Origin: Phlyctochytrium arcticum
Lineage: Eukaryota; Chytridiomycota; Chytridiomycetes; Chytridiales; Chytridiaceae
NCBI GenBank assembly: GCA_025602905.1
Contig: JAHLKI010000023.1
Location: 186,001 to 250,000, forward strand
Length of the DNA stretch: 64,000 nucleotides
Direction: 5' to 3'
Under the pieces are notes generated by a model, which saw nothing but the letters and a program-made list of their open reading frames with translations, had not been told where the DNA came from and searched no databases. The position numbers and the translations under genes were made by a program. Numbering within the stretch: position 1 is the first letter of the stretch; each line of letters opens with the position of its first letter. Shown one piece after another: positions 15,777 to 61,314 of this stretch.

Positions 15777-16973
15777 ATGGTCAAAGTTTACCAGCACGGG
15801 CTGCCCTGGAGGGAACTCGGCTCGCCACTATATTGGGACATCCGTAATACGCTGGAAGGAAGATTTCGCGGCAAAAGTCTGACGTTCTTAGCTCCTAATA
15901 CAGGAATCGCATATGTATCGTACAACGATGTGGGGGACCTCAGTAAAGATACCGGCGGCCGTACACTACCCCTGAGCTGGAAGTACGAATGGGAGGGGAA
16001 AACCTATAAACTATGGGCTAGTTTCAGCAAGACGCCGCCGCAGGAGAACGTCTTCGTCGTAGCCGGCATGGCGTTCAGCGTGGTTGCCCAGGCTCCACCG
16101 GCCACGGTCGCTGTCGTAGCGTGCGCTTCATCCAAAAGTAACGGTCCCAAAGTCAAAGCGGTACTCGACAATAAGCTCGGTACCACCACCGACAACACCG
16201 ACAATAAGAAGGAATCCGAGGTCGAATCTAACGCTGATGCACCGGGTGCCCTTGGCCACGCAGACGAGATCAGGCGTTTACAGCAAGAGATTGCCACTCT
16301 CCAGGGCGATAATCGCCGTCTGAAGTCCCAGCATAAGGAGGAGATTGCCACTCTCCAGGCCGATAATCGCCTTCTGCAGTCCCAGCAAAAGGAGGAGATT
16401 GCCGCTCTCCAGGACGATAATCGCCTTCTGCAGTCTCAGCATAAGGAGGAGACTATGCAACGCTATAAGCTGGAGGGACAGTGCGACGTCTTCAAGTCGT
16501 TGGCAAGTATGGCTCATGCTAGTCTTGCCGAAGAACGTTCTAGTCTCGCCGAGGAACGCGCCAACGTTCAAAAGGCCGAAGCGAACCTGACGGACCTGAA
16601 AAACCGCTTAGCCGCCCGTGCACTGTTAGAGGACTTTGTCGCACATCTCGGCAGCAAGCATACGGACTCAGTTGCTGCTCACCGTGGTGGCAAAAAGACC
16701 GTCTTGAACTGCGAATGTAGCGACTGTTCGGCTATTTTTGACGATGCGTACAAGACCATCGTCAAAAAGTATAAGCTTGTCAGCACGTTTAGCGTGAACA
16801 CGCTGCGCCGTTGCTTGACCCACTCCTATGAACGCCTCAGCAAGCTGGTACATTCGTCTGAGATGGTGACATTACGATTAGGCGGGCGGCTGGGAGATCG
16901 CCAGGAAGAGCTCTGTATTGAGGCTATAGCGGGTTGTGTCGGGTGGCCCATAGAGACGACGAGCGAATGTTGA
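15777..16973 (+). CDS. Hypothetical coiled-coil protein with 18-residue repeats
   Basis: 398-aa single frame, ATG at 15777. Residues 1-105 form a globular unknown domain with Trp/Tyr-rich strands (LPLSWKYEWEGKTYKLW). Residues 115-160 are a low-complexity linker. Residues 163-290 are a long coiled coil that contains three near-perfect 18-aa (54-bp) repeats of the type EEIATLQADNRLLQSQQK. The C-terminal part has a CECSDCSAIFD cluster and a helical end. No family is recognised. Its 3' end overlaps by 40 bp, in a different frame, the open frame of the Fanzor relic, so the two could have been neighbours in one mobile element; this is an inference only. Confidence 0.55.
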   Translation: MVKVYQHGLPWRELGSPLYWDIRNTLEGRFRGKSLTFLAPNTGIAYVSYNDVGDLSKDTGGRTLPLSWKYEWEGKTYKLWASFSKTPPQENVFVVAGMAFSVVAQAPPATVAVVACASSKSNGPKVKAVLDNKLGTTTDNTDNKKESEVESNADAPGALGHADEIRRLQQEIATLQGDNRRLKSQHKEEIATLQADNRLLQSQQKEEIAALQDDNRLLQSQHKEETMQRYKLEGQCDVFKSLASMAHASLAEERSSLAEERANVQKAEANLTDLKNRLAARALLEDFVAHLGSKHTDSVAAHRGGKKTVLNCECSDCSAIFDDAYKTIVKKYKLVSTFSVNTLRRCLTHSYERLSKLVHSSEMVTLRLGGRLGDRQEELCIEAIAGCVGWPIETTSEC

Positions 16974-22782: not shown

Positions 22783-23098
22783 TTTGGAAGAGGTTTTCTG
22801 TTGGATTCAGCTAAGTTTCTATAGCTGTTGTTGATGGTTTTTAGACTAGATTGATCGTGTGAAGATGAGTGTTGCTTTTAGCTTTTGAAAGTCATTCACC
22901 CTCGCGTGGGCTTGTACGTCACAAGATTATTTGTCCAAAGAACCAACGACCGATTTTCTCCTTCATCAACCGATTTACATACCACATTCATTCATTTTAT
23001 AGCATCAAATAGGAAAAGCAAAACTCTAGGCACAGTACACACATCTTGAATCAGTGGCTACAGAAGTGGCTCTGGAGTTCAGCAAAAAAAAACAAAAG
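22783..23098. promoter_or_regulatory. Pyruvate kinase upstream region
   Basis: 316 bp between the pyruvate kinase start and the tRNA. No TATA box or other discrete element recognised. Confidence 0.35.
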
Positions 23099-23181
23099 TG
23101 ATGAGAGTGGGATTTGAACCCACGCCTCCGGAGAGATCAGGGCCTTAACCTGACGCCTTAGACCAACTCGGCCATCTCACC
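23099..23181 (-). tRNA. tRNA-Leu (AAG)
   Basis: 83 nt, class II. Seven-bp acceptor GGTGAGA/TCTCATC, discriminator A, D-arm GCCGAGTTGGTCTAAGGC, anticodon stem TCAGG/CCTGA with loop TTAAGGC (anticodon AAG), long variable arm, T-arm GTGGG-TTCAAAT-CCCAC. No intron. Followed on its own strand by CTTTTGTTTTTTTTT, a Pol III terminator. Identical copies at 45111-45193 and 61232-61314. Confidence 0.95.
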
Positions 23182-25078
23182 CATTTCGTGAAATCGGCCC
23201 TCGGATTTGCGGCTATAATGCTAGCAATTTCGATCACATTGGTAGTTTGGTCTTGAATTTTGATGTGGGTCGTCAGAAGCAGTCTCGGCGGCAGAATGAA
23301 GAGTGCAAAAGCTCGTCAAATGAAACGAGGGAGGACCGCAGAGGACTGGCTCAAATGCCAACCATAGAGCGGTAGCCGTGCAAAGGATGAGATGAGTGAG
23401 TATAAGCCCAGTCAAACATTTGTATGGCAGACACGAGACGTAGGACCTGGTTGACCAGGCAAATCACAACCTTTTGCTTGGCTAGTATTTACAAGCAACT
23501 CTTTCGCACAAAAGTTCTAACCGCTATATCCAACTTCTGGAATGATTCAACATCCAAGTTGAATCACTGTCCCAGGCAGATGTTCTCCTCAAGAGAGATT
23601 GTACAAAACATTTTTTGTAATTCATTTTTTTTCAACCAAAAGCGTTCGTAAGGAAGTTGTTTTTCTAGTTGAGAACCAATTCTGGATTCTGGTGTGCCCC
23701 GCAAAAACCTCATCAAAAAAGCGGCAAGGTCTGATGGCAAAGGGCAGACTAGAATCAGAAATGACCTCATATAGAAAACGTCGTAAAAATGCGAGTTGAA
23801 AAGTTGCGCCAAGAGCAAGATCCAAAGGGATAGATAGAAGTCAATCCTCAAATAGAAGAGGCTGTTTTGCTGCTGAAAGACAGGGCAGCCACCAGCATCG
23901 TCTATTTGATTCTTACTTCTATGAGTCCCTTGGGGTCAGCCAGTGTCTTGAGTTGGAAAGTTGAGTTGGAGGGGGGCTGGCAGGTCCTCCTTTTATAGCC
24001 CGTGGCCGAGCTCTGGTGGCTGCAAACATTTTGGCGGCGACCGTTTGTGACGGTGGGCAAAATCAGGGAACGAGAGCAAAAATGGCGATAAGACCGGCCG
24101 CTGGATCTCGCATCTCGATGCGCATGGGTGTTTGTTGTTTGTCTCGCTTTATCCGGCATATTAATCGGTGTATATTTAATGATGTTTAACCGAACGACCA
24201 TGTGGATTGTGGACCTTGAAGCATCGAAGAACGACGAAGATGTTGTTCATTTTTTTTATGAATCAGGAAAAAACATTTTTTTATGAAGTCTCGATCAAGC
24301 TGAATATGAGCACTTCAGTCGGGCCCGCTGCTCGAGTATGCCAGACATTCAGAGTATGTACTAGATCTATAGAGTAGCGCAGGAAAAATTATGCATCTGA
24401 TGGGGTTTGTGTTGGCAAGATGCAGGATCTGGACTCGATCAAATCATTAGGACAGCATCGTATTATTTTTGGAAAGTACTTATAGTGACTTGACTTTCCA
24501 CATTTACTCGAGTTTCCAGGTGCATAAGCTTCCCGGCCTTGAGAATCTCTAGCAAAACGAGACATTTGAGAAAATGAATTGGGTGAGATTTACAAGCGTG
24601 AGGAAAGATGCGGTACATTTCTGCGTGGGAGGTAATTTTCTGATCTACGATTCAAGCAAAGCGGGTAGCAGGAAAAATGAATATACAGTATGATGAAATA
24701 TATGGAGCTTGCAGGAAATGCCGGAATTTGCTCTGACAGATCCTACCGAGATCCTAGTGTCAAATCGGGAAGCGAAATGAGAGCATTATGGCTGCGCCTA
24801 ACCGTTCGGCTTTGTATATAGCAGTCTGGTCAAATTACAGTAGGTTTATATATGCAAGGCATTCGGTGGGTTTAACACGAATTTGGATCTATCAAGCCAT
24901 GTACCAGTGGTCAGTCAGCCAGCGAGAAGGATATCAGTGAGTACGTGCAGATTGATGGCGAGAGACATGATATTGCGGACGTCGAGAGACAGGATTGACG
25001 CAACTGAAGAGGTGCGTGATTTACTATATATTATGCGCTAATTCCGGAATAGTTTGCATGCGCGCAAAAGGTATTGGC
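23182..25078. other. Gene-poor left flank of the Crypton array
   Basis: About 1.9 kb with only short, unconvincing frames and several A/T-rich tracts. The last bases before the array read ATTGGC and then TACC. Confidence 0.5.
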
Positions 25079-28000
25079 TACCTAAAAAGTGTCCAGGACG
25101 CGCTCATTAAAGAACACATGACCTGTGAGCGGCTCACAACTAATTGATTCAATGGGCTTGTCACTGAGATCACAGACGCGCACTGATACTTTCAACTCCG
25201 CCAAACTCCGCTCGCTTGTTGGCCTTTCCTTTCTTTCCAGCATTGCTTTGCGACAAAGTCCTCACCCCCGTTCTTTTACCCATACTTTACACTCGTTCTC
25301 TTTCTACCTACCCCGTCATCATCTTTTGCTGTATCATAGGAGTTGATTTTATTCCGTAGCTGAATGTATGTGCTTGCTGGCGAGCTTTGTTTATAATTTC
25401 GGACAAACTTATTAATATACATCTGAATGCCATTTTAGCCTATCCATCATGCCACGAAGGGCCAGAAAGGTGCAGGGGGTTCCCCTGTATATGTACCATG
25501 AGATATCATTGACCGCAGAGGAAATTGCTGCATTATCTCCCGAAGACCATGCTCGCTACCTCGAACAACAGTCGGTAGCCTCTACCACTCGGCAAGCCAG
25601 ATCGACCAGAAACTCCAACACCGAAAAAGCATACTCTCGATGGCAGAGGGAATACATTCACTGGTGCGAGGGTACCGCGGCTGTTGGATGCATGGTCCAA
25701 AATGACGGCACACTTGGGTACCCTTTGGAGACCACGTTGGTAGGGACCAAGTGCAAGTCATTGGTATCGGGTCGAAAGCTGCATATGTTTCTCAAGGATT
25801 GCGTACTGGCGATGGGCAATCAGGCAAAGAATCGTGTCGGTTATGTGCCGGGAAATAAGAAGCAGAAGCAGAAAAACCAAAGGGCTGCCGTTCGTGCTAA
25901 TGCCGGCTCTCGCAGTGGCAGTGGTGTTGGCGCTGGTGTTGGAGGTAGTGGTAGCGGTAGTGGTAGCGGCAGTGGAGATGCTAGTGGTAGCGGTGGTGGT
26001 AGTGGTAGCGGCAGTGGAGATGCTAGTGGAATCGCTAGTGGAAGTGGAACACAGTTTACATACGAGATGGTGGATGATAAGGGGGAGCCTGGAACTTACA
26101 AAAAGAAAGGTGCTGACCACTCGGTACGGACTTCATTGAACCCAAAACCTAATCTACAATGACAGGACATCCTGAATTCGTGCAATATGAATTTGGAGCA
26201 ATTAAGATGGTCGTCAAGTCAGTCGTTGATTTGTGGAGCCTGCAGAAAGATCAAGGACTAATTTCAGATCAGTAAGTGATACTAGAGCATCTTATTGAGC
26301 CTTAATAGCCTGATCGCACATAACAGATCCCATCCGCATCCTCGTATCTCCCTGGTGAATGCCATCTTAGAACAAATGCAGGCCCAAAAGCAAAACCATG
26401 ATGACCGAACGTTTAAGGACAAAGGCATCAATGGAATTGTAGACCAGTATGATATAGCAGACGATCGCAAACTCAATGTCTTCTGGTGGAACTTACCCCA
26501 AACGGGGCTTCGTAATCGCGCTCACCACAACTGCCTCCGCGCGGTCATGCAACGTTCCCAGTTCATGAGACGCCTGAAACTCTCTGACATCGCATGCAAG
26601 GTTGTTAACGATGAGGGTGTCACTGAGTGTGACATTGCCGCATTCACATGCAACAAGTCTAAAACCAATACGGAAGCCAAGCGCGAGGACTATGCGTTCA
26701 TCCGTCACAAAGATATATTGCTGTGTCCATGGAATTCTATGGCGTTTTGGGTTTTCGAACGCTACGAGATCAATCAAGAGCAACCACCCAAGTGCGATGT
26801 CTCCGCGGAATGGTATGACATCTTTTTTATGAAGGTAGGGTCTTGGCAGATATGCATGTTCAAATCATCACGTTTTAACGTGTTTTTGCCAGCCTTCCGA
26901 TCAGCAACAGGCAGCGATGGCGACCCGCAAAAGAAAGCGCAAAGCAAAAGGGCCGGCAAGACAACCCATCATTATTGGAGTCTGGGATGGCGCGGATCCC
27001 GTGGAGGACGAAGACGACCAGGACGACCCGGAGGAAGAAGTAGGGATCACGTATGATACCCAGTACAATCTGCAACGCACTGCGCTGGACGCGTGCGGCG
27101 TTCTATCCTCCAAAGTAACTCACTGCTGCCGTAAATGGGCTGCAATGGAAAATGAGCGCAAGGGAGTCGACGGGGATCAGAATGGCCGAATGGGAGGTTG
27201 GGCGCGTGATGCCAAAAACGGAGCCTATACCACCGGCCTGCCCTATCAAGCCATCCGTGCGTTAGGAGACTTTCCAATTAATGGCATCTGCTTTTTTCTA
27301 GCTATAGCGGTGCCAGTCCCGCAAGAGCTTCTGCAGTCCATTTTCCCGTGGATTGAGGAGCTGGAGCAAAAATGCCATCAAGTTCACACCGAGAGTGCGG
27401 GCATGTTGGCTGCCCTAGGGTTTTTGCGATGCCTGAAGGCTTGCCGCAAGGTCATTTGCCAGGACGCGCCAACTTTGATGCAAATGTATCCGAATCACGC
27501 TATTTGGCAGCATAGCTTCTTTAAAAGTCCTGCTTTCCTGAGGTACAAGGATCACAACCTCCAGGTATCAGCAACTGCCGTCAACCCGAGAGATTCAACG
27601 TTTGCCGCCATCGCTCCCTTTCTTAACGACCGCCTCACCACCCAAGATCTGGCCATGAAAGTCATTGGCACAGACGTTGCACACACAGTCGAGCGGGTGC
27701 GTTATGCGAGTATAAGTCTTCTGTGAGATCCCTAGCTGACCCGGACTCTATACTCTTCTTATCAGATCGACCGTGTCGACACTCAGCTAGAACAGTTCCA
27801 GACCCGGCAGTCTACCTTGATTGGCACTACAGCCCGGCTGACGGACGCCATCCTCAACTTACAACAAACTGTCAATGCATACCATGCGATTCTGGTTGCG
27901 AGCGGTCGCACCCACACAACTGCAGCTGCCGACGTAGCCACGACCGTCATGTCGCAGATTGCAAGAAACACTGAGACGCATCTTCAGGGGAACCGCGAGG

Positions 28001-29317
28001 TCTATCAATCGCTGATGCGCCTCTTCCCACAGCCCAACTCAGCATCATCCACATCACAGTCCCAACTAAATGTTGGTCTTCAACCCCAACCCCAAGGAGG
28101 TAACAACGGCTGCCCTTGCATTCATGGTTCAGGTTGTTTTTAATTCTGTACAGCTTCTACGCAAGCAACGTCAGCTGGATCATCCGAAACTCGCGACAAT
28201 GCAATCGGAGCCGAGGCAGCAGCAGGTTCGTATTTTCACACCATTGTATCAAGCGGACAGCATATCACTGATTTTCAGCAGCTCAAGTAGAGCAGGTCCC
28301 CGTGCAGAAGCAATGCCGGACAATCAAAACGGTGACGGCCGCATGGACAGAGTATGAAGTTGGTCCTTCTGGTGGACTACCCTGCAAGGTTGCCTTGCGC
28401 TGTTCATTCTTATTTCTGCCAACCCTTGGGCTAACTTGTGTGCACAGGAGCTTGAAGACAAGTGGCAAGCGCGGTGGAGGAACAGTCCATCAGACCGACA
28501 GTTTTGGAGTAAGCGCAAGCCTCTCTACGATGCTGTGACGCGTTTAGCCTCGGCCACAGCTAGAAGCAATCTGCAAGCTGCCCAGCGTTTGGAGCAGGAG
28601 CGACTCGCGATACACATCAGGTTCATTTGCTTTGAGACGGACATTTAACTCGTAGCAGTTCTAACAATGCGATTATTGTTTTACTACAGATTAGGCCTCG
28701 GTACAGTAGCCCCGTCCCTGTCCAGGTTCCAAGCCATGTTGTTAGAGCAAGGCGATGATATTATCACCTATCTGACCACAAACTAATTATCTCTAGGCGG
28801 CGTACAGTCTTCTCCTTATCAGTTCGTTTGCAGCGTGGTTTTGTTCATAGTTCGTCTAGTTCCTTCTATTGATTGGCGTAGTTTCTCATTTTCCGTTCAT
28901 TTTTTGTCACATCTTTATTTATTTGTTATAGTTTTTCTTTATCAAAATGGTCTACCATCCTGCTAGATGCAACACTGAATCTTTACGAAGTAGTTTGAGT
29001 GGATAGCAGTGCATGTTCTTGCATATTGATGTTGGATACCCGGGCTCTCGACGCGTCTGCCAAAAATCCCCAGAAATTAAACGACATTCTGGCCACCGTA
29101 TACATGATACATACTACAAACAACTACCACCCAGTCTCATGTAATTCATGAATGACCCGTCCAGTAGTGTCTGTCTGGTATTTTATGTCCTCAATACGTG
29201 TAAAAGTCGATTTTGACCCGGATACTTTGAGGCTACCTAGTGGTTGTGACTGGAGACCCAGGATACTTTCAAAACAGGCCAAGGATACTTTCGCTCACAA
29301 GCAAAACAGGTCAAGGA
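25079..29317 (+). mobile_element. Crypton-type element, unit 1
   Basis: Autonomous-looking DNA transposon of the tyrosine-recombinase class: one intron-containing gene (25449-28786), about 370 bp of 5' and about 530 bp of 3' non-coding sequence, no terminal inverted repeats, no transposase DDE gene, 4-bp TACC at each edge. A perfect 13-bp palindrome GTGAGCGGCTCAC lies 46 bp inside the left edge (25125-25137). The right end has repeated GGATAC motifs. Cryptons are thought to move as excised circles that recombine with a short matching site. Confidence 0.85.
25449..28786 (+). CDS. Crypton tyrosine recombinase with GCR1_C domain (unit 1)
   Basis: Site-specific recombinase that would excise and integrate the element. 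Nine exons: 25449-26109, 26166-26271, 26327-26834, 26893-27696, 27766-28099, 28154-28225, 28279-28388, 28448-28620, 28690-28786; 2865 nt, 954 aa. All eight introns (53-69 bp) have GT-AG ends and preserve frame. Residues 1-80: core-binding-like domain with NTEKAYSRWQREYIHWC. About 155-205: Ser-Gly repeat linker. About 230-560: Ndc10/Crypton-type catalytic domain with a candidate Arg332 (MQRSQ), the THCCR box giving His502 and Arg505, and candidate nucleophile Tyr537 (NGAYTTGLP). About 690-760: helical. About 845-905: GCR1_C-type DNA-binding domain (TVTAAWTEYEVGPSGG ... RQFWSKRKPLYDAV). Active-site numbering is my alignment by eye. Confidence 0.88.
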
Positions 29318-29321
29318 TACC
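29220..29321 (+). repeat. Subterminal repeats at the right end of unit 1
   Basis: GGATACTTT occurs at 29220, 29261 and 29283, and GGATACC closes the unit at 29315-29321. A 19-bp repeat CAAAACAGGYCAAGGATAC is present at 29270-29288 and 29302-29320 with one mismatch. GGCTACC, identical to the chromosomal left edge, is at 29231-29237. These are candidate recombinase binding arms. The same set recurs 4,239 and 8,478 bp further on. Confidence 0.6.
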
Positions 29322-32300
29322 TAAAAAGTGTCCAGGACGCGCTCATTAAAGAACACATGACCTGTGAGCGGCTCACAACTAATTGATTCAATGGGCTTGT
29401 CACTGAGATCACAGACGCGCACTGATACTTTCAACTCCGCCAAACTCCGCTCGCTTGTTGGCCTTTCCTTTCTTTCCAGCATTGCTTTGCGACAAAGTCC
29501 TCACCCCCGTTCTTTTACCCATACTTTACACTCGTTCTCTTTCTACCTACCCCGTCATCATCTTTTGCTGTATCATAGGAGTTGATTTTATTCCGTAGCT
29601 GAATGTATGTGCTTGCTGGCGAGCTTTGTTTATAATTTCGGACAAACTTATTAATATACATCTGAATGCCATTTTAGCCTATCCATCATGCCACGAAGGG
29701 CCAGAAAGGTGCAGGGGGTTCCCCTGTATATGTACCATGAGATATCATTGACCGCAGAGGAAATTGCTGCATTATCTCCCGAAGACCATGCTCGCTACCT
29801 CGAACAACAGTCGGTAGCCTCTACCACTCGGCAAGCCAGATCGACCAGAAACTCCAACACCGAAAAAGCATACTCTCGATGGCAGAGGGAATACATTCAC
29901 TGGTGCGAGGGTACCGCGGCTGTTGGATGCATGGTCCAAAATGACGGCACACTTGGGTACCCTTTGGAGACCACGTTGGTAGGGACCAAGTGCAAGTCAT
30001 TGGTATCGGGTCGAAAGCTGCATATGTTTCTCAAGGATTGCGTACTGGCGATGGGCAATCAGGCAAAGAATCGTGTCGGTTATGTGCCGGGAAATAAGAA
30101 GCAGAAGCAGAAAAACCAAAGGGCTGCCGTTCGTGCTAATGCCGGCTCTCGCAGTGGCAGTGGTGTTGGCGCTGGTGTTGGAGGTAGTGGTAGCGGTAGT
30201 GGTAGCGGCAGTGGAGATGCTAGTGGTAGCGGTGGTGGTAGTGGTAGCGGCAGTGGAGATGCTAGTGGAATCGCTAGTGGAAGTGGAACACAGTTTACAT
30301 ACGAGATGGTGGATGATAAGGGGGAGCCTGGAACTTACAAAAAGAAAGGTGCTGACCACTCGGTACGGACTTCATTGAACCCAAAACCTAATCTACAATG
30401 ACAGGACATCCTGAATTCGTGCAATATGAATTTGGAGCAATTAAGATGGTCGTCAAGTCAGTCGTTGATTTGTGGAGCCTGCAGAAAGATCAAGGACTAA
30501 TTTCAGATCAGTAAGTGATACTAGAGCATCTTATTGAGCCTTAATAGCCTGATCGCACATAACAGATCCCATCCGCATCCTCGTATCTCCCTGGTGAATG
30601 CCATCTTAGAACAAATGCAGGCCCAAAAGCAAAACCATGATGACCGAACGTTTAAGGACAAAGGCATCAATGGAATTGTAGACCAGTATGATATAGCAGA
30701 CGATCGCAAACTCAATGTCTTCTGGTGGAACTTACCCCAAACGGGGCTTCGTAATCGCGCTCACCACAACTGCCTCCGCGCGGTCATGCAACGTTCCCAG
30801 TTCATGAGACGCCTGAAACTCTCTGACATCGCATGCAAGGTTGTTAACGATGAGGGTGTCACTGAGTGTGACATTGCCGCATTCACATGCAACAAGTCTA
30901 AAACCAATACGGAAGCCAAGCGCGAGGACTATGCGTTCATCCGTCACAAAGATATATTGCTGTGTCCATGGAATTCTATGGCGTTTTGGGTTTTCGAACG
31001 CTACGAGATCAATCAAGAGCAACCACCCAAGTGCGATGTCTCCGCGGAATGGTATGACATCTTTTTTATGAAGGTAGGGTCTTGGCAGATATGCATGTTC
31101 AAATCATCACGTTTTAACGTGTTTTTGCCAGCCTTCCGATCAGCAACAGGCAGCGATGGCGACCCGCAAAAGAAAGCGCAAAGCAAAAGGGCCGGCAAGA
31201 CAACCCATCATTATTGGAGTCTGGGATGGCGCGGATCCCGTGGAGGACGAAGACGACCAGGACGACCCGGAGGAAGAAGTAGGGATCACGTATGATACCC
31301 AGTACAATCTGCAACGCACTGCGCTGGACGCGTGCGGCGTTCTATCCTCCAAAGTAACTCACTGCTGCCGTAAATGGGCTGCAATGGAAAATGAGCGCAA
31401 GGGAGTCGACGGGGATCAGAATGGCCGAATGGGAGGTTGGGCGCGTGATGCCAAAAACGGAGCCTATACCACCGGCCTGCCCTATCAAGCCATCCGTGCG
31501 TTAGGAGACTTTCCAATTAATGGCATCTGCTTTTTTCTAGCTATAGCGGTGCCAGTCCCGCAAGAGCTTCTGCAGTCCATTTTCCCGTGGATTGAGGAGC
31601 TGGAGCAAAAATGCCATCAAGTTCACACCGAGAGTGCGGGCATGTTGGCTGCCCTAGGGTTTTTGCGATGCCTGAAGGCTTGCCGCAAGGTCATTTGCCA
31701 GGACGCGCCAACTTTGATGCAAATGTATCCGAATCACGCTATTTGGCAGCATAGCTTCTTTAAAAGTCCTGCTTTCCTGAGGTACAAGGATCACAACCTC
31801 CAGGTATCAGCAACTGCCGTCAACCCGAGAGATTCAACGTTTGCCGCCATCGCTCCCTTTCTTAACGACCGCCTCACCACCCAAGATCTGGCCATGAAAG
31901 TCATTGGCACAGACGTTGCACACACAGTCGAGCGGGTGCGTTATGCGAGTATAAGTCTTCTGTGAGATCCCTAGCTGACCCGGACTCTATACTCTTCTTA
32001 TCAGATCGACCGTGTCGACACTCAGCTAGAACAGTTCCAGACCCGGCAGTCTACCTTGATTGGCACTACAGCCCGGCTGACGGACGCCATCCTCAACTTA
32101 CAACAAACTGTCAATGCATACCATGCGATTCTGGTTGCGAGCGGTCGCACCCACACAACTGCAGCTGCCGACGTAGCCACGACCGTCATGTCGCAGATTG
32201 CAAGAAACACTGAGACGCATCTTCAGGGGAACCGCGAGGTCTATCAATCGCTGATGCGCCTCTTCCCACAGCCCAACTCAGCATCATCCACATCACAGTC

Positions 32301-33556
32301 CCAACTAAATGTTGGTCTTCAACCCCAACCCCAAGGAGGTAACAACGGCTGCCCTTGCATTCATGGTTCAGGTTGTTTTTAATTCTGTACAGCTTCTACG
32401 CAAGCAACGTCAGCTGGATCATCCGAAACTCGCGACAATGCAATCGGAGCCGAGGCAGCAGCAGGTTCGTATTTTCACACCATTGTATCAAGCGGACAGC
32501 ATATCACTGATTTTCAGCAGCTCAAGTAGAGCAGGTCCCCGTGCAGAAGCAATGCCGGACAATCAAAACGGTGACGGCCGCATGGACAGAGTATGAAGTT
32601 GGTCCTTCTGGTGGACTACCCTGCAAGGTTGCCTTGCGCTGTTCATTCTTATTTCTGCCAACCCTTGGGCTAACTTGTGTGCACAGGAGCTTGAAGACAA
32701 GTGGCAAGCGCGGTGGAGGAACAGTCCATCAGACCGACAGTTTTGGAGTAAGCGCAAGCCTCTCTACGATGCTGTGACGCGTTTAGCCTCGGCCACAGCT
32801 AGAAGCAATCTGCAAGCTGCCCAGCGTTTGGAGCAGGAGCGACTCGCGATACACATCAGGTTCATTTGCTTTGAGACGGACATTTAACTCGTAGCAGTTC
32901 TAACAATGCGATTATTGTTTTACTACAGATTAGGCCTCGGTACAGTAGCCCCGTCCCTGTCCAGGTTCCAAGCCATGTTGTTAGAGCAAGGCGATGATAT
33001 TATCACCTATCTGACCACAAACTAATTATCTCTAGGCGGCGTACAGTCTTCTCCTTATCAGTTCGTTTGCAGCGTGGTTTTGTTCATAGTTCGTCTAGTT
33101 CCTTCTATTGATTGGCGTAGTTTCTCATTTTCCGTTCATTTTTTGTCACATCTTTATTTATTTGTTATAGTTTTTCTTTATCAAAATGGTCTACCATCCT
33201 GCTAGATGCAACACTGAATCTTTACGAAGTAGTTTGAGTGGATAGCAGTGCATGTTCTTGCATATTGATGTTGGATACCCGGGCTCTCGACGCGTCTGCC
33301 AAAAATCCCCAGAAATTAAACGACATTCTGGCCACCGTATACATGATACATACTACAAACAACTACCACCCAGTCTCATGTAATTCATGAATGACCCGTC
33401 CAGTAGTGTCTGTCTGGTATTTTATGTCCTCAATACGTGTAAAAGTCGATTTTGACCCGGATACTTTGAGGCTACCTAGTGGTTGTGACTGGAGACCCAG
33501 GATACTTTCAAAACAGGCCAAGGATACTTTCGCTCACAAGCAAAACAGGTCAAGGA
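29318..33556 (+). mobile_element. Crypton-type element, unit 2
   Basis: Same content and length as unit 1, offset 4,239 bp. Both of its edges are internal junctions of the form GGATACCTAAAAAG, which is the sequence expected at the closed joint of a circular copy. Confidence 0.85.
29688..33025 (+). CDS. Crypton tyrosine recombinase with GCR1_C domain (unit 2)
   Basis: Identical gene to that of unit 1 (add 4,239 to each exon boundary: 29688-30348 to 32929-33025). Intact, 954 aa, same candidate catalytic residues. No private stop or frameshift is seen. Confidence 0.88.
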
Positions 33557-36500
33557 TACCTAAAAAGTGTCCAGGACGCGCTCATTAAAGAACACATGAC
33601 CTGTGAGCGGCTCACAACTAATTGATTCAATGGGCTTGTCACTGAGATCACAGACGCGCACTGATACTTTCAACTCCGCCAAACTCCGCTCGCTTGTTGG
33701 CCTTTCCTTTCTTTCCAGCATTGCTTTGCGACAAAGTCCTCACCCCCGTTCTTTTACCCATACTTTACACTCGTTCTCTTTCTACCTACCCCGTCATCAT
33801 CTTTTGCTGTATCATAGGAGTTGATTTTATTCCGTAGCTGAATGTATGTGCTTGCTGGCGAGCTTTGTTTATAATTTCGGACAAACTTATTAATATACAT
33901 CTGAATGCCATTTTAGCCTATCCATCATGCCACGAAGGGCCAGAAAGGTGCAGGGGGTTCCCCTGTATATGTACCATGAGATATCATTGACCGCAGAGGA
34001 AATTGCTGCATTATCTCCCGAAGACCATGCTCGCTACCTCGAACAACAGTCGGTAGCCTCTACCACTCGGCAAGCCAGATCGACCAGAAACTCCAACACC
34101 GAAAAAGCATACTCTCGATGGCAGAGGGAATACATTCACTGGTGCGAGGGTACCGCGGCTGTTGGATGCATGGTCCAAAATGACGGCACACTTGGGTACC
34201 CTTTGGAGACCACGTTGGTAGGGACCAAGTGCAAGTCATTGGTATCGGGTCGAAAGCTGCATATGTTTCTCAAGGATTGCGTACTGGCGATGGGCAATCA
34301 GGCAAAGAATCGTGTCGGTTATGTGCCGGGAAATAAGAAGCAGAAGCAGAAAAACCAAAGGGCTGCCGTTCGTGCTAATGCCGGCTCTCGCAGTGGCAGT
34401 GGTGTTGGCGCTGGTGTTGGAGGTAGTGGTAGCGGTAGTGGTAGCGGCAGTGGAGATGCTAGTGGTAGCGGTGGTGGTAGTGGTAGCGGCAGTGGAGATG
34501 CTAGTGGAATCGCTAGTGGAAGTGGAACACAGTTTACATACGAGATGGTGGATGATAAGGGGGAGCCTGGAACTTACAAAAAGAAAGGTGCTGACCACTC
34601 GGTACGGACTTCATTGAACCCAAAACCTAATCTACAATGACAGGACATCCTGAATTCGTGCAATATGAATTTGGAGCAATTAAGATGGTCGTCAAGTCAG
34701 TCGTTGATTTGTGGAGCCTGCAGAAAGATCAAGGACTAATTTCAGATCAGTAAGTGATACTAGAGCATCTTATTGAGCCTTAATAGCCTGATCGCACATA
34801 ACAGATCCCATCCGCATCCTCGTATCTCCCTGGTGAATGCCATCTTAGAACAAATGCAGGCCCAAAAGCAAAACCATGATGACCGAACGTTTAAGGACAA
34901 AGGCATCAATGGAATTGTAGACCAGTATGATATAGCAGACGATCGCAAACTCAATGTCTTCTGGTGGAACTTACCCCAAACGGGGCTTCGTAATCGCGCT
35001 CACCACAACTGCCTCCGCGCGGTCATGCAACGTTCCCAGTTCATGAGACGCCTGAAACTCTCTGACATCGCATGCAAGGTTGTTAACGATGAGGGTGTCA
35101 CTGAGTGTGACATTGCCGCATTCACATGCAACAAGTCTAAAACCAATACGGAAGCCAAGCGCGAGGACTATGCGTTCATCCGTCACAAAGATATATTGCT
35201 GTGTCCATGGAATTCTATGGCGTTTTGGGTTTTCGAACGCTACGAGATCAATCAAGAGCAACCACCCAAGTGCGATGTCTCCGCGGAATGGTATGACATC
35301 TTTTTTATGAAGGTAGGGTCTTGGCAGATATGCATGTTCAAATCATCACGTTTTAACGTGTTTTTGCCAGCCTTCCGATCAGCAACAGGCAGCGATGGCG
35401 ACCCGCAAAAGAAAGCGCAAAGCAAAAGGGCCGGCAAGACAACCCATCATTATTGGAGTCTGGGATGGCGCGGATCCCGTGGAGGACGAAGACGACCAGG
35501 ACGACCCGGAGGAAGAAGTAGGGATCACGTATGATACCCAGTACAATCTGCAACGCACTGCGCTGGACGCGTGCGGCGTTCTATCCTCCAAAGTAACTCA
35601 CTGCTGCCGTAAATGGGCTGCAATGGAAAATGAGCGCAAGGGAGTCGACGGGGATCAGAATGGCCGAATGGGAGGTTGGGCGCGTGATGCCAAAAACGGA
35701 GCCTATACCACCGGCCTGCCCTATCAAGCCATCCGTGCGTTAGGAGACTTTCCAATTAATGGCATCTGCTTTTTTCTAGCTATAGCGGTGCCAGTCCCGC
35801 AAGAGCTTCTGCAGTCCATTTTCCCGTGGATTGAGGAGCTGGAGCAAAAATGCCATCAAGTTCACACCGAGAGTGCGGGCATGTTGGCTGCCCTAGGGTT
35901 TTTGCGATGCCTGAAGGCTTGCCGCAAGGTCATTTGCCAGGACGCGCCAACTTTGATGCAAATGTATCCGAATCACGCTATTTGGCAGCATAGCTTCTTT
36001 AAAAGTCCTGCTTTCCTGAGGTACAAGGATCACAACCTCCAGGTATCAGCAACTGCCGTCAACCCGAGAGATTCAACGTTTGCCGCCATCGCTCCCTTTC
36101 TTAACGACCGCCTCACCACCCAAGATCTGGCCATGAAAGTCATTGGCACAGACGTTGCACACACAGTCGAGCGGGTGCGTTATGCGAGTATAAGTCTTCT
36201 GTGAGATCCCTAGCTGACCCGGACTCTATACTCTTCTTATCAGATCGACCGTGTCGACACTCAGCTAGAACAGTTCCAGACCCGGCAGTCTACCTTGATT
36301 GGCACTACAGCCCGGCTGACGGACGCCATCCTCAACTTACAACAAACTGTCAATGCATACCATGCGATTCTGGTTGCGAGCGGTCGCACCCACACAACTG
36401 CAGCTGCCGACGTAGCCACGACCGTCATGTCGCAGATTGCAAGAAACACTGAGACGCATCTTCAGGGGAACCGCGAGGTCTATCAATCGCTGATGCGCCT

Positions 36501-37795
36501 CTTCCCACAGCCCAACTCAGCATCATCCACATCACAGTCCCAACTAAATGTTGGTCTTCAACCCCAACCCCAAGGAGGTAACAACGGCTGCCCTTGCATT
36601 CATGGTTCAGGTTGTTTTTAATTCTGTACAGCTTCTACGCAAGCAACGTCAGCTGGATCATCCGAAACTCGCGACAATGCAATCGGAGCCGAGGCAGCAG
36701 CAGGTTCGTATTTTCACACCATTGTATCAAGCGGACAGCATATCACTGATTTTCAGCAGCTCAAGTAGAGCAGGTCCCCGTGCAGAAGCAATGCCGGACA
36801 ATCAAAACGGTGACGGCCGCATGGACAGAGTATGAAGTTGGTCCTTCTGGTGGACTACCCTGCAAGGTTGCCTTGCGCTGTTCATTCTTATTTCTGCCAA
36901 CCCTTGGGCTAACTTGTGTGCACAGGAGCTTGAAGACAAGTGGCAAGCGCGGTGGAGGAACAGTCCATCAGACCGACAGTTTTGGAGTAAGCGCAAGCCT
37001 CTCTACGATGCTGTGACGCGTTTAGCCTCGGCCACAGCTAGAAGCAATCTGCAAGCTGCCCAGCGTTTGGAGCAGGAGCGACTCGCGATACACATCAGGT
37101 TCATTTGCTTTGAGACGGACATTTAACTCGTAGCAGTTCTAACAATGCGATTATTGTTTTACTACAGATTAGGCCTCGGTACAGTAGCCCCGTCCCTGTC
37201 CAGGTTCCAAGCCATGTTGTTAGAGCAAGGCGATGATATTATCACCTATCTGACCACAAACTAATTATCTCTAGGCGGCGTACAGTCTTCTCCTTATCAG
37301 TTCGTTTGCAGCGTGGTTTTGTTCATAGTTCGTCTAGTTCCTTCTATTGATTGGCGTAGTTTCTCATTTTCCGTTCATTTTTTGTCACATCTTTATTTAT
37401 TTGTTATAGTTTTTCTTTATCAAAATGGTCTACCATCCTGCTAGATGCAACACTGAATCTTTACGAAGTAGTTTGAGTGGATAGCAGTGCATGTTCTTGC
37501 ATATTGATGTTGGATACCCGGGCTCTCGACGCGTCTGCCAAAAATCCCCAGAAATTAAACGACATTCTGGCCACCGTATACATGATACATACTACAAACA
37601 ACTACCACCCAGTCTCATGTAATTCATGAATGACCCGTCCAGTAGTGTCTGTCTGGTATTTTATGTCCTCAATACGTGTAAAAGTCGATTTTGACCCGGA
37701 TACTTTGAGGCTACCTAGTGGTTGTGACTGGAGACCCAGGATACTTTCAAAACAGGCCAAGGATACTTTCGCTCACAAGCAAAACAGGTCAAGGA
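33557..37795 (+). mobile_element. Crypton-type element, unit 3
   Basis: Same content and length as unit 1, offset 8,478 bp. Its right edge is the outer junction GGATACC-CGTGTGG with chromosomal DNA. Confidence 0.85.
33927..37264 (+). CDS. Crypton tyrosine recombinase with GCR1_C domain (unit 3)
   Basis: Identical gene to that of unit 1 (add 8,478 to each exon boundary: 33927-34587 to 37168-37264). Intact, 954 aa. Only the sequence beyond the final TACC distinguishes this unit. Confidence 0.88.
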
Positions 37796-37799
37796 TACC

Positions 37800-39507
37800 C
37801 GTGTGGCGTTGTGGCACAGTTCCACGTGCTTGTGACTGAGAGACGCGAGGAACATGCGCAGCCACGGACCTTGTGAGTCGCGTATATATGCGGGCAATTG
37901 TGAATAGGGATTTTCGGGGGCATACACCCATAGTTTAGGATCAATAGAAGGTGAGCAGGATACTGCCGCCGATGCCGCTGATTGGCATGCTTTTAAAAAT
38001 TGGGGACTCGTTTTCCGTGCGAGTCCTGCACACCAGTCCGGTAATGTTACTGTCCTTCTAAAATAAATTACTTGCTCCTCAGATGACCAGGGCCCTGCTC
38101 GAAGAGTTTATCTGACCGGACAAGATCCCACCCAAGAAACGAGGAAACCCATCATCTCCAAATCATCAGCTAGTATCTTGACTCAATCACAAGGTCCAAG
38201 TGCATAGTCATAGTCAGAATGGCTCTCGACCAAAAAAACTGCACCCTCTGCAATTAGGCCTCACTGTTCAAACAATGAAAAAAAAACCCTCCCTACATCC
38301 CCCCAAACAAAAACGAAAAACGTTTTGCTCGCTATTCGATTGTCAGATTATTTAGGCAATTTCTGTTTATCCACAAGAGTGTTCAGAACAGGTCTGTAGA
38401 AATGTTTATCGTCATTCAAAATAGCATCAGCCAAGAATCGAACTCGCGACTCTTGCGCGCGCGCGTTGGTCGAACGCGGCTCGGCCAAAGTCGCGGCAAG
38501 ATTCACAAATGGGGTGGAATAAAGATTGTATAGCGTGCCGGGGGGATTTGCATCAGGGTCATCATCTGAACCGCATCAATGTTGCAACAGACAGATACAC
38601 TCAAGGAGACTCAGGGGATTCACCGGGGGTTTCATGCTGCTGTCGGGAGGCAATTAGGTTCTCGTCATATATGCCCTGCTCTGGATCTACATACAAAAAG
38701 CCATGGATTTCCCGACGGTAAAACCAAACACATTCAGTTGCTGTAAGATCATCCATCACAGGCAACACTTTTGATATGTGATTTGGAGACGGATAAAGCT
38801 TCAAACTTTCCAGAGGCTCTCGATCAACAGGCCCACATTTTGAATCATTCAAAATGGAACAATGATGGAGCAAAAGCTTGTGGCGTTATACTTTTATACA
38901 GGAAGGATATCAAACCGCCATTTACGATGCCTTCCCACAATACCCGAGATAATTCACTGCTGCATTTCTACAGGAAATGTCCAAAGTCGAGCTCTGTAAA
39001 ATTGGAAATTGGAAAGCTGGTACTCGAGTATAGCGCGGCCTTTCATGGGGAACGAACGCAAAGTTTGGACCGGACCTTTGTCGAATCAGCGACTGCGCCA
39101 CGACAGATCAGTTTGCCAATTTCAAATTTGGTCAAAAATTTCAAAATTTTGAAAGGAGTGTCCCTGGCATTATTGGCAGGTCAGGTCAGGTCGGGTGGCA
39201 GCAGGAGGAGCAGCAGTGGTTGTAAAATAAGTTCTTGCCCTGAACGTATAGCTGGCAAAAGGAGCTTTGGTTTTCGGTTGTGGCATTTCCGTTACGATTT
39301 GCGTCGGAGCACTCTCTAATTGCCGTGACCTCATTTTGTACTTGGGAGGAGCAGATACCCTGAAGACGACGACGACGACTGATCCAACTCCGCCGTGCAT
39401 AGTCGCTCTCGGCGTATATACGGGACTGCCAGCGCATATATACGCGTAAAAGGCCTTACGACCGACTACTACCCGCCGCCCAAGTTTTCCATTAAACAAA
39501 AAAAACA
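37800..39507. other. Gene-poor right flank of the Crypton array and ABC transporter promoter
   Basis: 1.7 kb without a supported gene. It begins CGTGTGGCG directly after the array. The frames at 38601-38873 (minus) and 38771-39319 (plus) lack motifs. A/T-rich TATATA tracts near 39414-39442 lie 65-95 bp before the ABC transporter start. Confidence 0.45.
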
Positions 39508-42500
39508 ATGGAGTGGAACACTGACAAGTTGTGTGCTGGAGAGCCGTGGGTAAGCCAGCCTTGTTATTCCTTCTTTAAACGAGCTCCTTCTGACGGACAT
39601 TTTGGTATATAGGGACCATGGACTCCGAGTGGCGATGACTTTACTGACTGTTTTGAACGAGTGTAAGCCAAGAATGGAGAGCAATACTACAAGACTCGGG
39701 GCTAATCGATGAGATTTCGATTTGTAGAGTCTTGATATCCCTCGTCCCAACCATCCTTCTTTGGACATTTGGCACGTACTCCCTCCTCCACTACATCTTT
39801 TGGCGCCGCGACAATCTGGGTCCAAACGCCTACGTCCCTGTTCCCGACGCCTACGCTGCCGATACGCCCGACGACGTGCCAAATGACAGTGATTATGGGG
39901 GTGGAGATGGATCGTACCCCTCTGCAGTAGGGGATGGGTCTGGCCGGCGTCACGATCTATGGATTTGGATACTTTTGCTGATTCTAGCAGTGGTAGAGGC
40001 GGGGTTGGGTTTTGGAAAGTGGTATATTGAATCAGGGTTCGAGCCCTTCAAGGTTCTCGAAGCACTGGCTACTGGTGGTGGATGGTTATGCAGTTTTCTC
40101 CTCCTACTCGCCTTTACGATCACGACATGTCCACCCTCCCGGCCCTCCCTGTACTTTCCGTTTGAACGCGCCAAACGCAAGTCGCTGCGGTACTTGCTAC
40201 CTGTATGGTTGGGATTCGCCATTGTCAAGGCCATCCAACTGCGATCCATCTCGTTAAGCCACGAAGCGGGACATGCTGGACAGGTGGAAGTCAGCGTTGT
40301 CGGGATACAGATGAGTCTCGCGGCGATTCTGTGTGCACTTGGCGCAACCATTTCCGGGGAACGAATGCTTCGGTCCCGGTCCCGACGGCGATTGACTCCC
40401 GCATCTACACACTCTGGATCGTCAGCGCGGGAGCTGCCGATTTCGGGAGAACTCACGGCGGGATTGTTTAGCAAACTCACATTTCGGTGGTTTAATCCCC
40501 TCATTCAGAAAGGATACCGGAAAACACTTACCATGGACGATGTGCCCGATTTGATAGAAGCGGATAAATCCGCTCATGTTTGCCAGCAGTTTATGAAGAT
40601 TCGGTATGTGATTTGACTCTGACTACCACGCCCTCATCCCCCTGGCTAAACTCGTGTTTATTTTTGCCTGTAGACTTCGCCATGCAAGTTTGCCTACCGC
40701 CTTGTTTTATTTGGTCCGCCCGCTGCTGTCGGTACAGTTGATCTTTGCCATTGTCTCGGCACTCCTATCCTTCTCGGGCCCCTTTTTCCTTAACCGTATT
40801 CTTGTCCATGTATCCACACCCGACGCTCCAGCCATTCAAGGCATCGGATATGCCGTGGCCATGTTGACTTTAACAGTGATTCAAGAAATATGCGATGGCC
40901 AGCTCTACTTTATCGGCCGTCGAATCGGCATGCGCGTTCGGGCAGTTATCATTGGACAAATCTACAGCAAAGCTCTGTTTCGACGGAGTGCCGCACAACA
41001 AGCTACCACCACCAACGCTGAAGGCTCGGAAGAGAGTACGAGCGCGAGTACGGGTCAAGTCACCAATCTGATGGCCGTCGACGCCCAGAAAATCCTGGAA
41101 GTGTCGTCGTACCTGACCTACTATGTCGCATCACCCTTGCAGATTGTTATTTGCATCGGATTGCTATTGACTGTCTTGGGATGGCCTGCGCTTGCTGGAG
41201 TGGCCGTTATGCTCATCATGACCCCTACTGGAGTCTTTATTGGACAGCTCATGGGCAAGATGCAAAAGCGGTTAATCAAGGCTACCGACAAGCGGATGAC
41301 CGGCATGAACGAGACACTCCAAGGGATCCGCATCATAAAATTCTTTGCCTGGGAAGAACACTACTATAAACTCATCACGGCACTCCGCGCAAAGGAACTC
41401 AGAAAACTGCGCGATTATCTGTACGCGGTTGCGGCCAACGGTCTGGTCTGGTTTGCGGCTCCAATCATTGTATCCGTGCTGACATTCATGACATTTACGT
41501 TGCTGGCTGGCCGTGAGTTGACGGCCGAAATTGCGTTTACGGGGCTGGCGCTGTTTAATGCCCTCCGAAACCCTTTGCAGGTCTTTCCCGAAATGGTTGT
41601 GAGGGGGGTGGAATCGCTTGTGAGCGTGCGTCGGGTGGAAGCGTTATTGGCTGAACCCGAGTTGGAACGCTACCAACAGGACTCGTACCGCGACCACCAC
41701 GTTGCGGATGATGCAGACCAAGATGTTCCCATTGGATTTACGGGACCTGCAACGTTTTCATGGCAAGCTTCCCAAAATTCCTCATCGTCACCGACCAACA
41801 CTTCAGCAATCCGGAGAAAAGAGTTTACGCTCCAAGACATTTACGTCAAATTCCCGGTCGGTGGATTGACTTTGCTGGTGGGAACCACCGGCTGCGGCAA
41901 AACCAGTATGATTAACGCGCTCCTGGGTGAAATGAACCGGCTGTCAGGGCAGGCCCATCTTCCCGACAGCCGATTCGCAACCGTTGACCCAAAGACGGGG
42001 TTATCCTCTTCTGTCGCGTACGCGGCCCAAACCTCCTGGTTGATGAATGCCACGATCCGGGACAATATTCTGTTTAGAGAGCCTTGGAACGCTACACGGT
42101 ACAACAAGGTCGTCAAGGCGTGCGCTCTTGTCCGCGATTTTGAGACGTTGGAAGGAGGGGATATGACGGAAATTGGCGAAAAGGGGGTGAATGTATCCGG
42201 TGGACAGAAAGCGCGAATATCGTTGGCACGAGCTGCGTATTCTTCTGCTGCGTTTGTGCTCCTTGACGACCCATTATCGGCCGTGGATGCACCGACTGCT
42301 CGCCACCTATTTGAAGAATGTATACTGGGACTTTTACATAACCGAACCCGTATCCTCGTCACCCATGCCGTTCATCTCTGTATACCGAAAGCGGATCACG
42401 TTCTTGTCATGCAACAGGGTCGTATACTCTTGCAGGGGCCACCGGGGACAGTTTTGGGACGGGGGCCCGGGAAAATTGATTTGGGGACTTTTGCGCACCA

Positions 42501-44874
42501 CGGCGAGGATATTATTGCCGAGGAGGATGGACTGCCTGCATTAGCGGAAGAGGAGATTGACGAGCCGCCAGTAGTGCTTCAGGACAACAACACCAAGCCG
42601 CTGCCCATCCCGCCCGTATCCATGACCGAATCTGAAGTCGCTCGTGATTTGGCTTTAGGTGATGCAGAACCCTCCGTAGAAGACTCTGACAATGTCCTAC
42701 CCACTCGACAAGTCTTGCGACTGACCCAGGAGGAAGGCCGGTCATCCGGAACAGTCAAATATGCCGTTTACGAGACGTACATTACTGCTGCGGGAAGTAC
42801 TGTTTTTGTGTGTTGTGCGGGGGTGGCATACCTGCTGGTCCAAACCTCTTCTATCGGACAAGACTGGTGGCTTAAACAGTGGTCTTCGGCTTCCAAAGCA
42901 TCCAATAACGGCGATGAAAAATCAGTGTATTATTACTTGACGATTTATACCATCATTGGCGGAATCAGTATCCTCACATTATTTATCCGCGCGATTGTCG
43001 TGACAATAGGCTCACTGAATGCATCCCGACGCTTGCATAGTACTTTGTTGAAACGGATACTGTACGCTCCCATGCGGTTTTTCGATACCACACCCATGGG
43101 CCGGATACTGAACCGGTTCTCGCGGGATATTCAGGTGTTGGACCAAGAAACAATTCGATACGCCGGCGAATTTGTCTCCCATGTTGTATCGGCTATAGCC
43201 ATCTTGACCGTTATTGCCATTGTCACGCCCGTGTTTTTAGCGGGCGTGGTGCCCATTGCCGTGTTATATTACTCGGTTGCGAGATTGTACTTGCGCACAT
43301 CAAGGGAATTGAAGCGGCTGGAATCGGTGACGCGGTCACCCATCTATTCTCATTTTGGCGAGACGATTGTGGGGGCGTCAACGATCCGGGCCTACGGGGC
43401 CGAAAACCGGTTCCTGCAGGAAAATCATGCGAGGGTGGATACCTGTCATCGCGCCTTTATCCATTTGTGGATATCCAACCGCTGGCTCAGTGTTCGCATT
43501 GATTTTATCGGGGCTTTAGTGGCGTTTACTTCTGCCATGGCCATTCTCGCCACGTTGCATTGGGGTCAAGGACTAGACGCCGGTGCGGCCGGTCTGAGTC
43601 TTAGTTATGCATTGACGTTTACCGAGGCTTTACTCTGGTGTGTCCGATTACATGCGGCAACCGAGATGGCCATGAATTCTGTGGAGCGGATCAGGGAATA
43701 TTTGGAGATTGAGCAAGAGGCTCCTGCCAAAATCAAAGAGGCTGAACCCTTACGCGATTGGCCGTCAGCGGGCCGAGTCGAATTTAAGGATTTGACTGTA
43801 CGCTATGCACCGGATTTGACGCCCGTCCTGAAAAATGTCAGTTTTACGATCCTACCCGGCGAAAAAGTGGGGATTGTCGGACGAACGGGTGCGGGTAAAT
43901 CAACGCTTTCGCTTGCTCTGTACCGGTTCCTTGAAGCCTCCGAGGGATCTATCTACGTGGACGGTGTGGATATTAGCCAGATTGGACTGTTTGATTTACG
44001 CTCACGGCTGACGATTATCCCACAAGATCCTGTGTTATTTACCGGCACGGTTCGGTCCAATCTGGACCCCTTTCATGAACATTCCGATTTAGAGTTGTGG
44101 ACTGCGTTGCGCCGGGCTCATTTACTGGATACATCATCAGCAAGTCATGAATCTGGTACTACTACTGCTCCCATTTCTGTGCCTCGACCGGATACGCCGG
44201 GGAGTACGGGGGCTGGATCTTCAGTTAGTGGGAGTCTTGTTCTGGACAAGTCAGGGTCACTCATTGCACCGGCACCCCTATCGATTCCACCACCACCACC
44301 CAGTTATACTATCCCATCTTCCTCGCTATCCCGCCGCACATCGACCCACTCCCTGAGTTCTGAATCGAACAACCAGCGCCCCAACCTTCGCCATCGCGGC
44401 TCCAATGCCTCTATCGCGTCTTCTTCCCGTGGTAATAGTGGAAGTGGGATATCCATACGACTGGATACGGTCGTCTCAGAAGGCGGCTCCAATTTCTCCC
44501 AGGGGCAACGCCAATTACTCTGTCTAGCCCGTGCACTCCTTCGATCGTGTAAAGTGATTGTCCTGGATGAAGCTACAGCTTCAGTCGATCATTCCACTGA
44601 CGCAAAAATCCAAGAAACGATTCGGACAGAGTTTCGGGGTGCGACCCTTTTATGCGTTGCGCACCGTCTTAGAACTGTGGCAGACTATGACAAGATTTTG
44701 GTGTTGGCAGCAGGTCAAGTCGTCGAATTTGGATCTCCATTGGGGCTCATGTCAAAATCACCCTCACCAGACGCCGTGTTCCAGGCCATGTGCAATGAGA
44801 CGGGGGAATACTCGAATTTATTGGATATGGCGCAGAAGGCCGATGCAGAGCGGAAATTGAAACAGACTCGATGA
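39508..44874 (+). CDS. ABCC (MRP/YOR1-type) full-length ABC transporter
   Basis: ATP-driven export or vacuolar sequestration of conjugates and drugs. Exons 39508-39549, 39613-39662, 39728-40603, 40674-44874; 5169 nt, 1722 aa. N-terminal TMD0 begins with the MRP-like PWTPSGDDFTDCFE segment made by splicing. Then TMD1, and NBD1 with Walker A GTTGCGKTS (about 726), signature VSGGQKARIS (about 830) and Walker B LLDDPLSAVD. TMD2 follows, then NBD2 with Walker A GRTGAGKST (about 1392), signature FSQGQRQL (about 1597) and Walker B IVLDEATASVD. NBD1 has TGCGK and DDPLSAVD, as in other ABCC proteins with an asymmetric first site. Unusual: a Ser/Pro-rich insert of about 110 residues (about 1475-1585) inside NBD2 between the Q-loop helical region and the signature. 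Substrate unknown. Confidence 0.93.
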
Positions 44875-45110: not shown

Positions 45111-45193
45111 GGTGAGATGGCCGAGTTGGTCTAAGGCGTCAGGTTAAGGCCCTGATCTCTCCGGAGGCGTGGGTTCAAATCCCACTCTCATCA
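45111..45193 (+). tRNA. tRNA-Leu (AAG)
   Basis: Same 83-nt class II tRNA as at 23099-23181. Anticodon loop TTAAGGC, long variable arm, discriminator A. Intronless. Confidence 0.95.
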
Positions 45194-45194
45194 C

Positions 45195-60937: not shown

Positions 60938-61231
60938 GGAACGTGCCCACTTTTTTCTGATTCCGGACAATTTGTATCTTCTACTTATGTTGGTATCAAC
61001 ATCTGTATATATCGATTGAATCATTTTTGTCACCAGGCAATCGTATATTTTCCGGCAAAATATGACATGAACGACAAAACAATATTAAAAAACCGGCCAT
61101 GTAGGAGTCCCGATACGTATGATAGCATAATTTTCCACCGGGCTGAAATTCACCATACAACAAGGAGAACGACGACAAAGAGAAAAAAATCAGAAGAAAA
61201 GATCGGGTCGCGAATAACAAAAAAACAAAAG

Positions 61232-61314
61232 TGATGAGAGTGGGATTTGAACCCACGCCTCCGGAGAGATCAGGGCCTTAACCTGACGCCTTAGACCAAC
61301 TCGGCCATCTCACC
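61232..61314 (-). tRNA. tRNA-Leu (AAG)
   Basis: Third identical 83-nt copy. The downstream side on its strand is CTTTTGTTTTTTTG, a Pol III terminator; the upstream side shares ATG directly before the tRNA with the other two copies. Confidence 0.95.

Follow-up and report, generated by a model that had tools for sequence, protein, structure and literature searches.

How does a eukaryotic DNA transposon come to stand three times in a row, head to tail, with no chromosomal DNA between its copies? Such an array occupies positions 25079-37799 of the window, which is the whole 64,000-nucleotide stretch of DNA from the chytrid Phlyctochytrium arcticum analysed here, and it consists of three direct 4,239-bp units plus 4 bp (TACC). 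Unit 1 (25079-29317), unit 2 (29318-33556) and unit 3 (33557-37795) lie on the plus strand and are 100% identical, and unit 1 starts at a true left end, TACC^TAAAAAG (the caret marks an element boundary or the position of a joint). A comparison of the window with itself at an offset of 4,239 gave a single exact run from 25079 to 33560 (8,482 bp, zero mismatches). The original prediction of three identical direct units, amplified very recently and set side by side without intervening chromosomal DNA, is thus borne out. It had named an old segmental duplication as the alternative; we observed no internal differences between the units, and the flanks (23400-25078 and 37879-39400), when searched in the 31.5-Mb assembly, matched only themselves and are thus single copy. 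Elsewhere in the window are an ORF of 1,406 aa (40654-44874) that matches a P. arcticum ABC transporter at 100% identity, three tRNA-Leu(AAG) genes within 38 kb (23098-23181, 45111-45194 and 61231-61314), and a 54-bp tandem repeat of 3.1 copies (16287-16452) within ORF 15777-16973.

Each unit carries an intact nine-exon recombinase gene, as predicted. The gene of unit 1 (25449-28786, plus strand) has its exons at 25449-26109, 26166-26271, 26327-26834, 26893-27696, 27766-28099, 28154-28225, 28279-28388, 28448-28620 and 28690-28786, and the genes of unit 2 (29688-33025) and unit 3 (33927-37264), on the same strand, give the same spliced open reading frame and an identical protein of 954 aa. All eight introns are GT-AG introns of 53-69 bp, and there is one terminal stop. 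A Pfam scan of the protein at E 0.01 identified NDC10_II (1.1e-37) and, at residues 842-917, GCR1_C (PF12550; 3.7e-16), and nothing else. We placed the residues R332, H502, R505, W528 and Y537. All four residues of the R-H-R-Y tetrad align in L050 and L052, two of the three further recombinase genes read from this genome; in L051 the two arginines and the histidine match, but the tyrosine sits one column away. Based on this domain combination, the window element is a CryptonF transposon, in keeping with its earlier assignment to the Crypton-type tyrosine-recombinase (YR) elements. A structure prediction for exon 4 alone, run with no alignment as input, had too low a quality (mean pLDDT 51) for the YR fold to be confirmed. 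A search of a large protein database with the element protein at E 1e-3 found no relative among 7,989 candidates scored, many of which may have been attracted by a Gly-Ser stretch, and a search with residues 225-720 at E 1e-5 found none among 5,056 candidates. Among solved structures (E 0.1) there were 12 matches, the best of which match the Gly-Ser stretch, and Ndc10 accounts for only two of the 12 (E 0.02 and 0.047). Within the genome, we observed at least 131 NDC10_II matches, a count that includes several exons per gene, and at least 74 GCR1_C matches at E <= 0.001, both of these being lower bounds.

To define the ends of the element, we compared its copies across the genome. A first DNA search returned at least 22 matches, which is a lower bound because none of them lay on contig C23, in which the window lies, or on C26; the left-end pattern occurs 13 times in the genome and the right-end pattern 11 times. 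Eight independent left ends, with the duplicates on C41 and C63 taken once and four array joints excluded, have unrelated flanking DNA up to xxxC^TAAAAAG. The preceding bases are TACC in five of these eight, and C is at position -1 in all of them; going outward from the left-end T, the bases are C in eight, C in seven, A in six and T in six, beyond which the sequence looks random. At the right end, eight sequences were compared, the window among them; five copies other than the window carry a full 99-bp tail past element position q4239 that ends in GGATAACT, and the TACC at the right of the window array is thus internal, in contrast to the TACC^TAAAAAG at its left, which is a true terminus. 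The shared 4-bp TACC of the original prediction is present at the joints, but it does not mark both ends of the element, a possibility ruled out by the five longer copies. The last copy of the window retains 83 bp of the tail (37796-37878, plus strand) and lacks the terminal 16 bp, GGAGACCAGGATAACT; a search with the right-end 15-mer, allowing up to two mismatches, found no copy in the window. The right tail of L005 stops at base 57, where the terminus of another transposon starts; in L009 the tail has undergone rearrangement and runs into this same foreign terminus at base 72. A complete element measures approximately 4.34 kb, and the copy on contig C4, which has a few small deletions, is 4,293 bp long.

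The bases that the two ends share are few. The base that follows GGATAAC, or one-base variants of it, is T in 10 of 11 right-end rows (joint J1 of the second array, described below, being one row), the sole exception being L046 with GGATTGC^G. Left ends mostly read TACCT and right ends AACT, with CT alone common to all. The flanks of the insertions on C4 and C26, in which both ends are present, have no shared duplication beyond CT, and the two ends of the single C4 copy lie in unrelated flanks without an array-type joint. We also searched the genome for the empty sites that the C4 and C26 insertions predict; neither turned up elsewhere, and the matches were limited to their own halves and one weak or partial match each.

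Several other copies are rearranged or incomplete. On C43, the foreign terminus that follows the Crypton tail in both L005 and L009 is GGGTGCGTATCGGGCGCTGTGGAATTTGG, belonging to an unnamed DNA transposon. On C17 (476904-488310), about 7.3 kb of unrelated DNA interrupts a Crypton copy (L007/L008) at q1723-1726. The C28 copy appears to be split near its left end into L001 (164860-169009) and L018 (135707-135765), which cover q52-4239 and q1-59, are separated by 29 kb, point in opposite directions and have the 8-bp CGGCTCAC in common; each piece adjoins the end of another transposon, GGGTGCGTATCGGGCGCTG or its complement, and the arrangement suggests an insertion with an 8-bp duplication followed by an inversion. 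Three right-end stubs of about 25-50 bp that end in ATAAC^T (L041, L043 and L044, on C27, C47 and C6) have no corresponding element body within 1.5 kb upstream, and two of them start at nearly the same base. The C6 stub has in its vicinity a recombinase of 24% identity that is oppositely oriented.

With the termini defined, the window joints can be read. Joint 1 (29315-29328) and joint 2 (33554-33567), both on the plus strand, have the sequence GGATACCTAAAAAG, in which the left end is fused to an internal GGATACC site and not to the true right end. The window array is consequently not a row of complete elements placed end to end, as had been supposed, since its right-hand partner at the joint is an internal site 99 bp short of the terminus. 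Because both joints are identical, they count as one event at most.

A second array, on the minus strand of contig C26 from 80.2 to 67.4 kb, contains three head-to-tail copies of an approximately 83%-identical subfamily, and its units are 100% identical to each other over their overlaps. Its outer left end is CATTGTCC^TAAAAAG. The first joint, J1, unites the true right end with the left end (CCAGGATAACTAAAAAG) and has the sequence that would be expected of a circle joint. The second, J2, unites an internal site, TATTGGATA^CCC, with the left end (TATTGGATAACTAAAAAG), and units 1 and 3 still have this internal site intact. Successive left ends are spaced by 4,395 and 4,032 bp, which makes the middle unit 363 bp shorter. 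J2 most likely derives from a J1-type joint, since it carries AAC, as J1 does, where the outer left end has TCC. The bases before the left-end T are probably derived from the target, because the outer GTCC and inner TAAC differ in units that are otherwise identical. A self-comparison of the C26 array (E 1e-10) gave unit-to-unit matches only and thus no long terminal repeats, and no inverted-repeat core or palindrome was evident at J1 (best 47% complementary).

All four joints have the form GGATA[A/C]CTAAAAAG, i.e. GGATA[A/C]C^TAAAAAG, and the left partner in each is the element terminus. The 14-mer pattern GGATAMCTAAAAAG occurs six times in the genome, namely at the four array joints, at the C28 left end and at C1:1750749, and a reversed-pattern control gave one match. 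The C1 occurrence (L049, 1750749-1750762, minus strand) reads GGATACCTAAAAAGTGT and then CACGTGACCTGTG; it may be the left end of a more distant Crypton family at a target of the same kind, or a chance match, given that what follows bears only a loose likeness to the left end of a Crypton. Taken together, the joints and the bases at the two ends suggest that the exchange takes place at or just left of C^T and that the target resembles the right-end core of the element.

Could such joints have arisen without the recombinase? Host repair at short matches (TACC; GGATA) might have made the first tandem duplication, which homologous unequal exchange then enlarged. The 4 bp shared at the window joint and the approximately 5 bp shared at J2 would suit such repair, and the identical units and joints of the window are compatible with later homologous exchange. 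However, all three joint types combine the left terminus with a GGATA site. As a null for microhomology, we took the C4 copy with its flanks and all direct pairs of at least 4 bp at a distance of 3.0-5.5 kb: among 22,416 such pairs, 35 touch the left terminus and five of these also a GGATA site, and for pairs of at least 5 bp the corresponding numbers are 5,621, nine and two. The chance per joint is thus about 2 in 10,000 if all pairs are equally likely. By this estimate repair without guidance is unlikely to produce even a single such joint, and less likely still to produce two unlinked arrays; the pattern recurs at two unlinked places in two subfamilies, and J1 moreover unites both true ends. 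We thus consider host repair unlikely as the origin of the arrays. The shared core and the microhomology null uphold the original view that site-specific recombination fits the joints better than chance duplication does.

The arrays might instead have been created by the assembler, the true loci holding one or two units that were then repeated. The analysis covered the assembly alone, and the 100% identity of the units and their number, three in both arrays, would fit such an artefact. Simple stuttering would not, however, generate what is seen on C26, where the two joints differ and the middle unit is shortened. Both arrays lie inside contigs (435 kb and 416 kb), the window array between single-copy flanks, and the single copy on C4, with its unrelated flanks, has no joint of this kind. 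An assembly artefact is accordingly improbable. Nested insertion of a new copy into the internal GGATACC of an older one fares worse still. The site does resemble the TACC^T preferred at left ends, but the tail of the interrupted copy would have to remain after the insert, whereas the window has one tail only, and on C26 the sequence past the last right end is non-element. As it stands, this explanation is contradicted by the single window tail and would require extra deletions at both loci, and we regard it as very improbable.

We consider it probable, based on the sequences of the ends and joints, that the Crypton's own recombinase made the joints, via circles or an equivalent exchange. The enzyme would connect the left end (C^TAAAAAG) with GGATA[A/C]C, a site of the right-end type, which would usually be the terminal GGATAACT and at times an upstream GGATACC. 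The product would be a circle or an equivalent sister-chromatid exchange, two possibilities that sequence cannot separate, with the joint GGATA[A/C]C^TAAAAAG. By recombining with the end of a resident copy, this product would give a head-to-tail array without flanking DNA. If the resident copy in the window already lacked the true right end, this would explain why the nearest internal site was used there. The three window units might reflect two equal rounds, or one round followed by homologous unequal exchange. From the intact genes, the selection on them described below, the defined termini, the two unlinked arrays, the three joint types with one core and the TACC^T preference, all of which were observed, we infer the encoded recombinase as the agent, the circle and the order of events.

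Comparison of the window element with the C26 subfamily gave a dN of 0.069, a dS of 0.73 and a dN/dS of 0.094 (941 codons; gapped and stop codons excluded), and all eight GT-AG introns and their splice sites are kept. A full open frame is present in three of nine copies compared (window, C26 and C28), the other six being broken or truncated. Within subfamilies, dN/dS values range from 0.4 to 1.5, with too few differences to be informative. The element ends are conserved: the first 350 bp are 96% identical and the 83-bp tail 99%; between them, several 120-bp blocks are at 48-80%, the lowest at 48%, and other gene blocks reach up to 98%. These values speak for past purifying selection on the recombinase and for very recent spread, without thereby proving present activity.

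The internal site used at the window joints is one of a cluster. Near the 3' end of unit 1 (29001-29321, plus strand), six GGATA sites are at 29001, 29034, 29220, 29261, 29283 and 29315. In plus orientation, all GGATA sites of these two elements lie close to the right end, six within the final 400 bases of the window element, counting the tail, and seven within the final 420 bp of the C26 element; the C4 element has one more at 2071; in minus orientation there are three each in the window, C26 and C4 elements. Shuffles of the 420 bp of C26 contained on average 0.35 GGATA, and none of 5000 reached seven, for a region that was picked after the cluster had been noticed. The repeats CCCGGATACTTT, AGACCCAGGATACTTTC and TTGTGACTGGAGACC surround the sites. 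We propose that the recombinase may act at the clustered sites, which are akin to the true right end, AGGATAACT. Both internal joints are at GGATACC sites, and none is at GGATACT or GGATAGC. It is conceivable, if rather doubtful, that extra right-end sites (GGATACC/GGATACT), which resemble the true end and the preferred target, let the recombinase build, shorten and enlarge its own arrays. If this is true, it would amount to phage-like multiplication at one locus. In the part of the open-access literature covered by our search, we found nothing like such array-building by a eukaryotic DNA transposon.

Comparison with known systems places the chytrid element among, and in part apart from, the CryptonF transposons. 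CryptonF elements combine YR and GCR1_C domains, and the model cited for them is excision as a circle and reintegration (PMC3212892, Kojima and Jurka 2011); as that paper reports, Goodwin et al. drew on the analogy of prokaryotic elements when they proposed movement as a circle, and it describes Crypton boundaries as difficult to characterize. Chytrids, the group of the host, are absent from the portion of its Table 1 consulted.

Crypton Cn1 of Cryptococcus has one intron-rich gene, as does the chytrid element. Like the CryptonF elements as far as described in our sources (Cn1 and its relatives), the chytrid element has YR and GCR1_C domains, no long terminal repeats and very short shared end bases. 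It differs from them, on the same sources, in forming head-to-tail arrays with preserved joints, in the several right-end-like GGATA sites near its 3' end, two of which are found in joints, and in an end repeat that most copies have in no longer form than A[A/C]CT, as opposed to a perfect repeat of 4-6 bp. The open-access literature that we searched in part describes no Crypton arrays, and the founding Crypton paper of 2003 may still hold a report of them.

The element protein contains no reverse transcriptase, a hallmark of DIRS/Ngaro elements (Pfam, E 0.01), and the recombinase gene is the only one modelled in the unit. As for the hallmarks of DDE transposons, the C4 and C26 insertions have no target-site duplication beyond CT, J1 has no palindrome and the protein is of the YR type. 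Starships, the large, cargo-carrying tyrosine-recombinase elements known, in the sources seen, from the Pezizomycotina, bear cargo genes and a captain with a DUF3435 domain; by contrast, the chytrid element has no DUF3435 match (Pfam, E 0.01), no cargo and one gene in 4.3 kb. It shares the NDC10_II domain with Ndc10, the CBF3 subunit of yeast centromeres. Ndc10 is a domesticated relative that has not kept its catalytic site, according to the part of PMC3212892 consulted, whereas the chytrid protein appears from its alignment to retain R-H-R-Y.

The two arrays supply defined ends, an exact end-to-end joint, a TACC^T preference, conserved end regions and several intact genes, and with them the old circle proposal comes down to an enzyme and a few DNA sites, which can be tested in vitro or in yeast. 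They suggest that a Crypton-type recombinase can build tandem arrays, multiplying without scattering. A parallel in working is provided by tandem prophages and integrative elements, in which a tyrosine recombinase integrates a circle beside a resident copy and thus creates arrays with a shared att core. The chytrid element resembles the bacterial tandem prophages in this respect without being a member of that group, as it is eukaryotic, intron-bearing and single-gene, and its circle is a proposed one.
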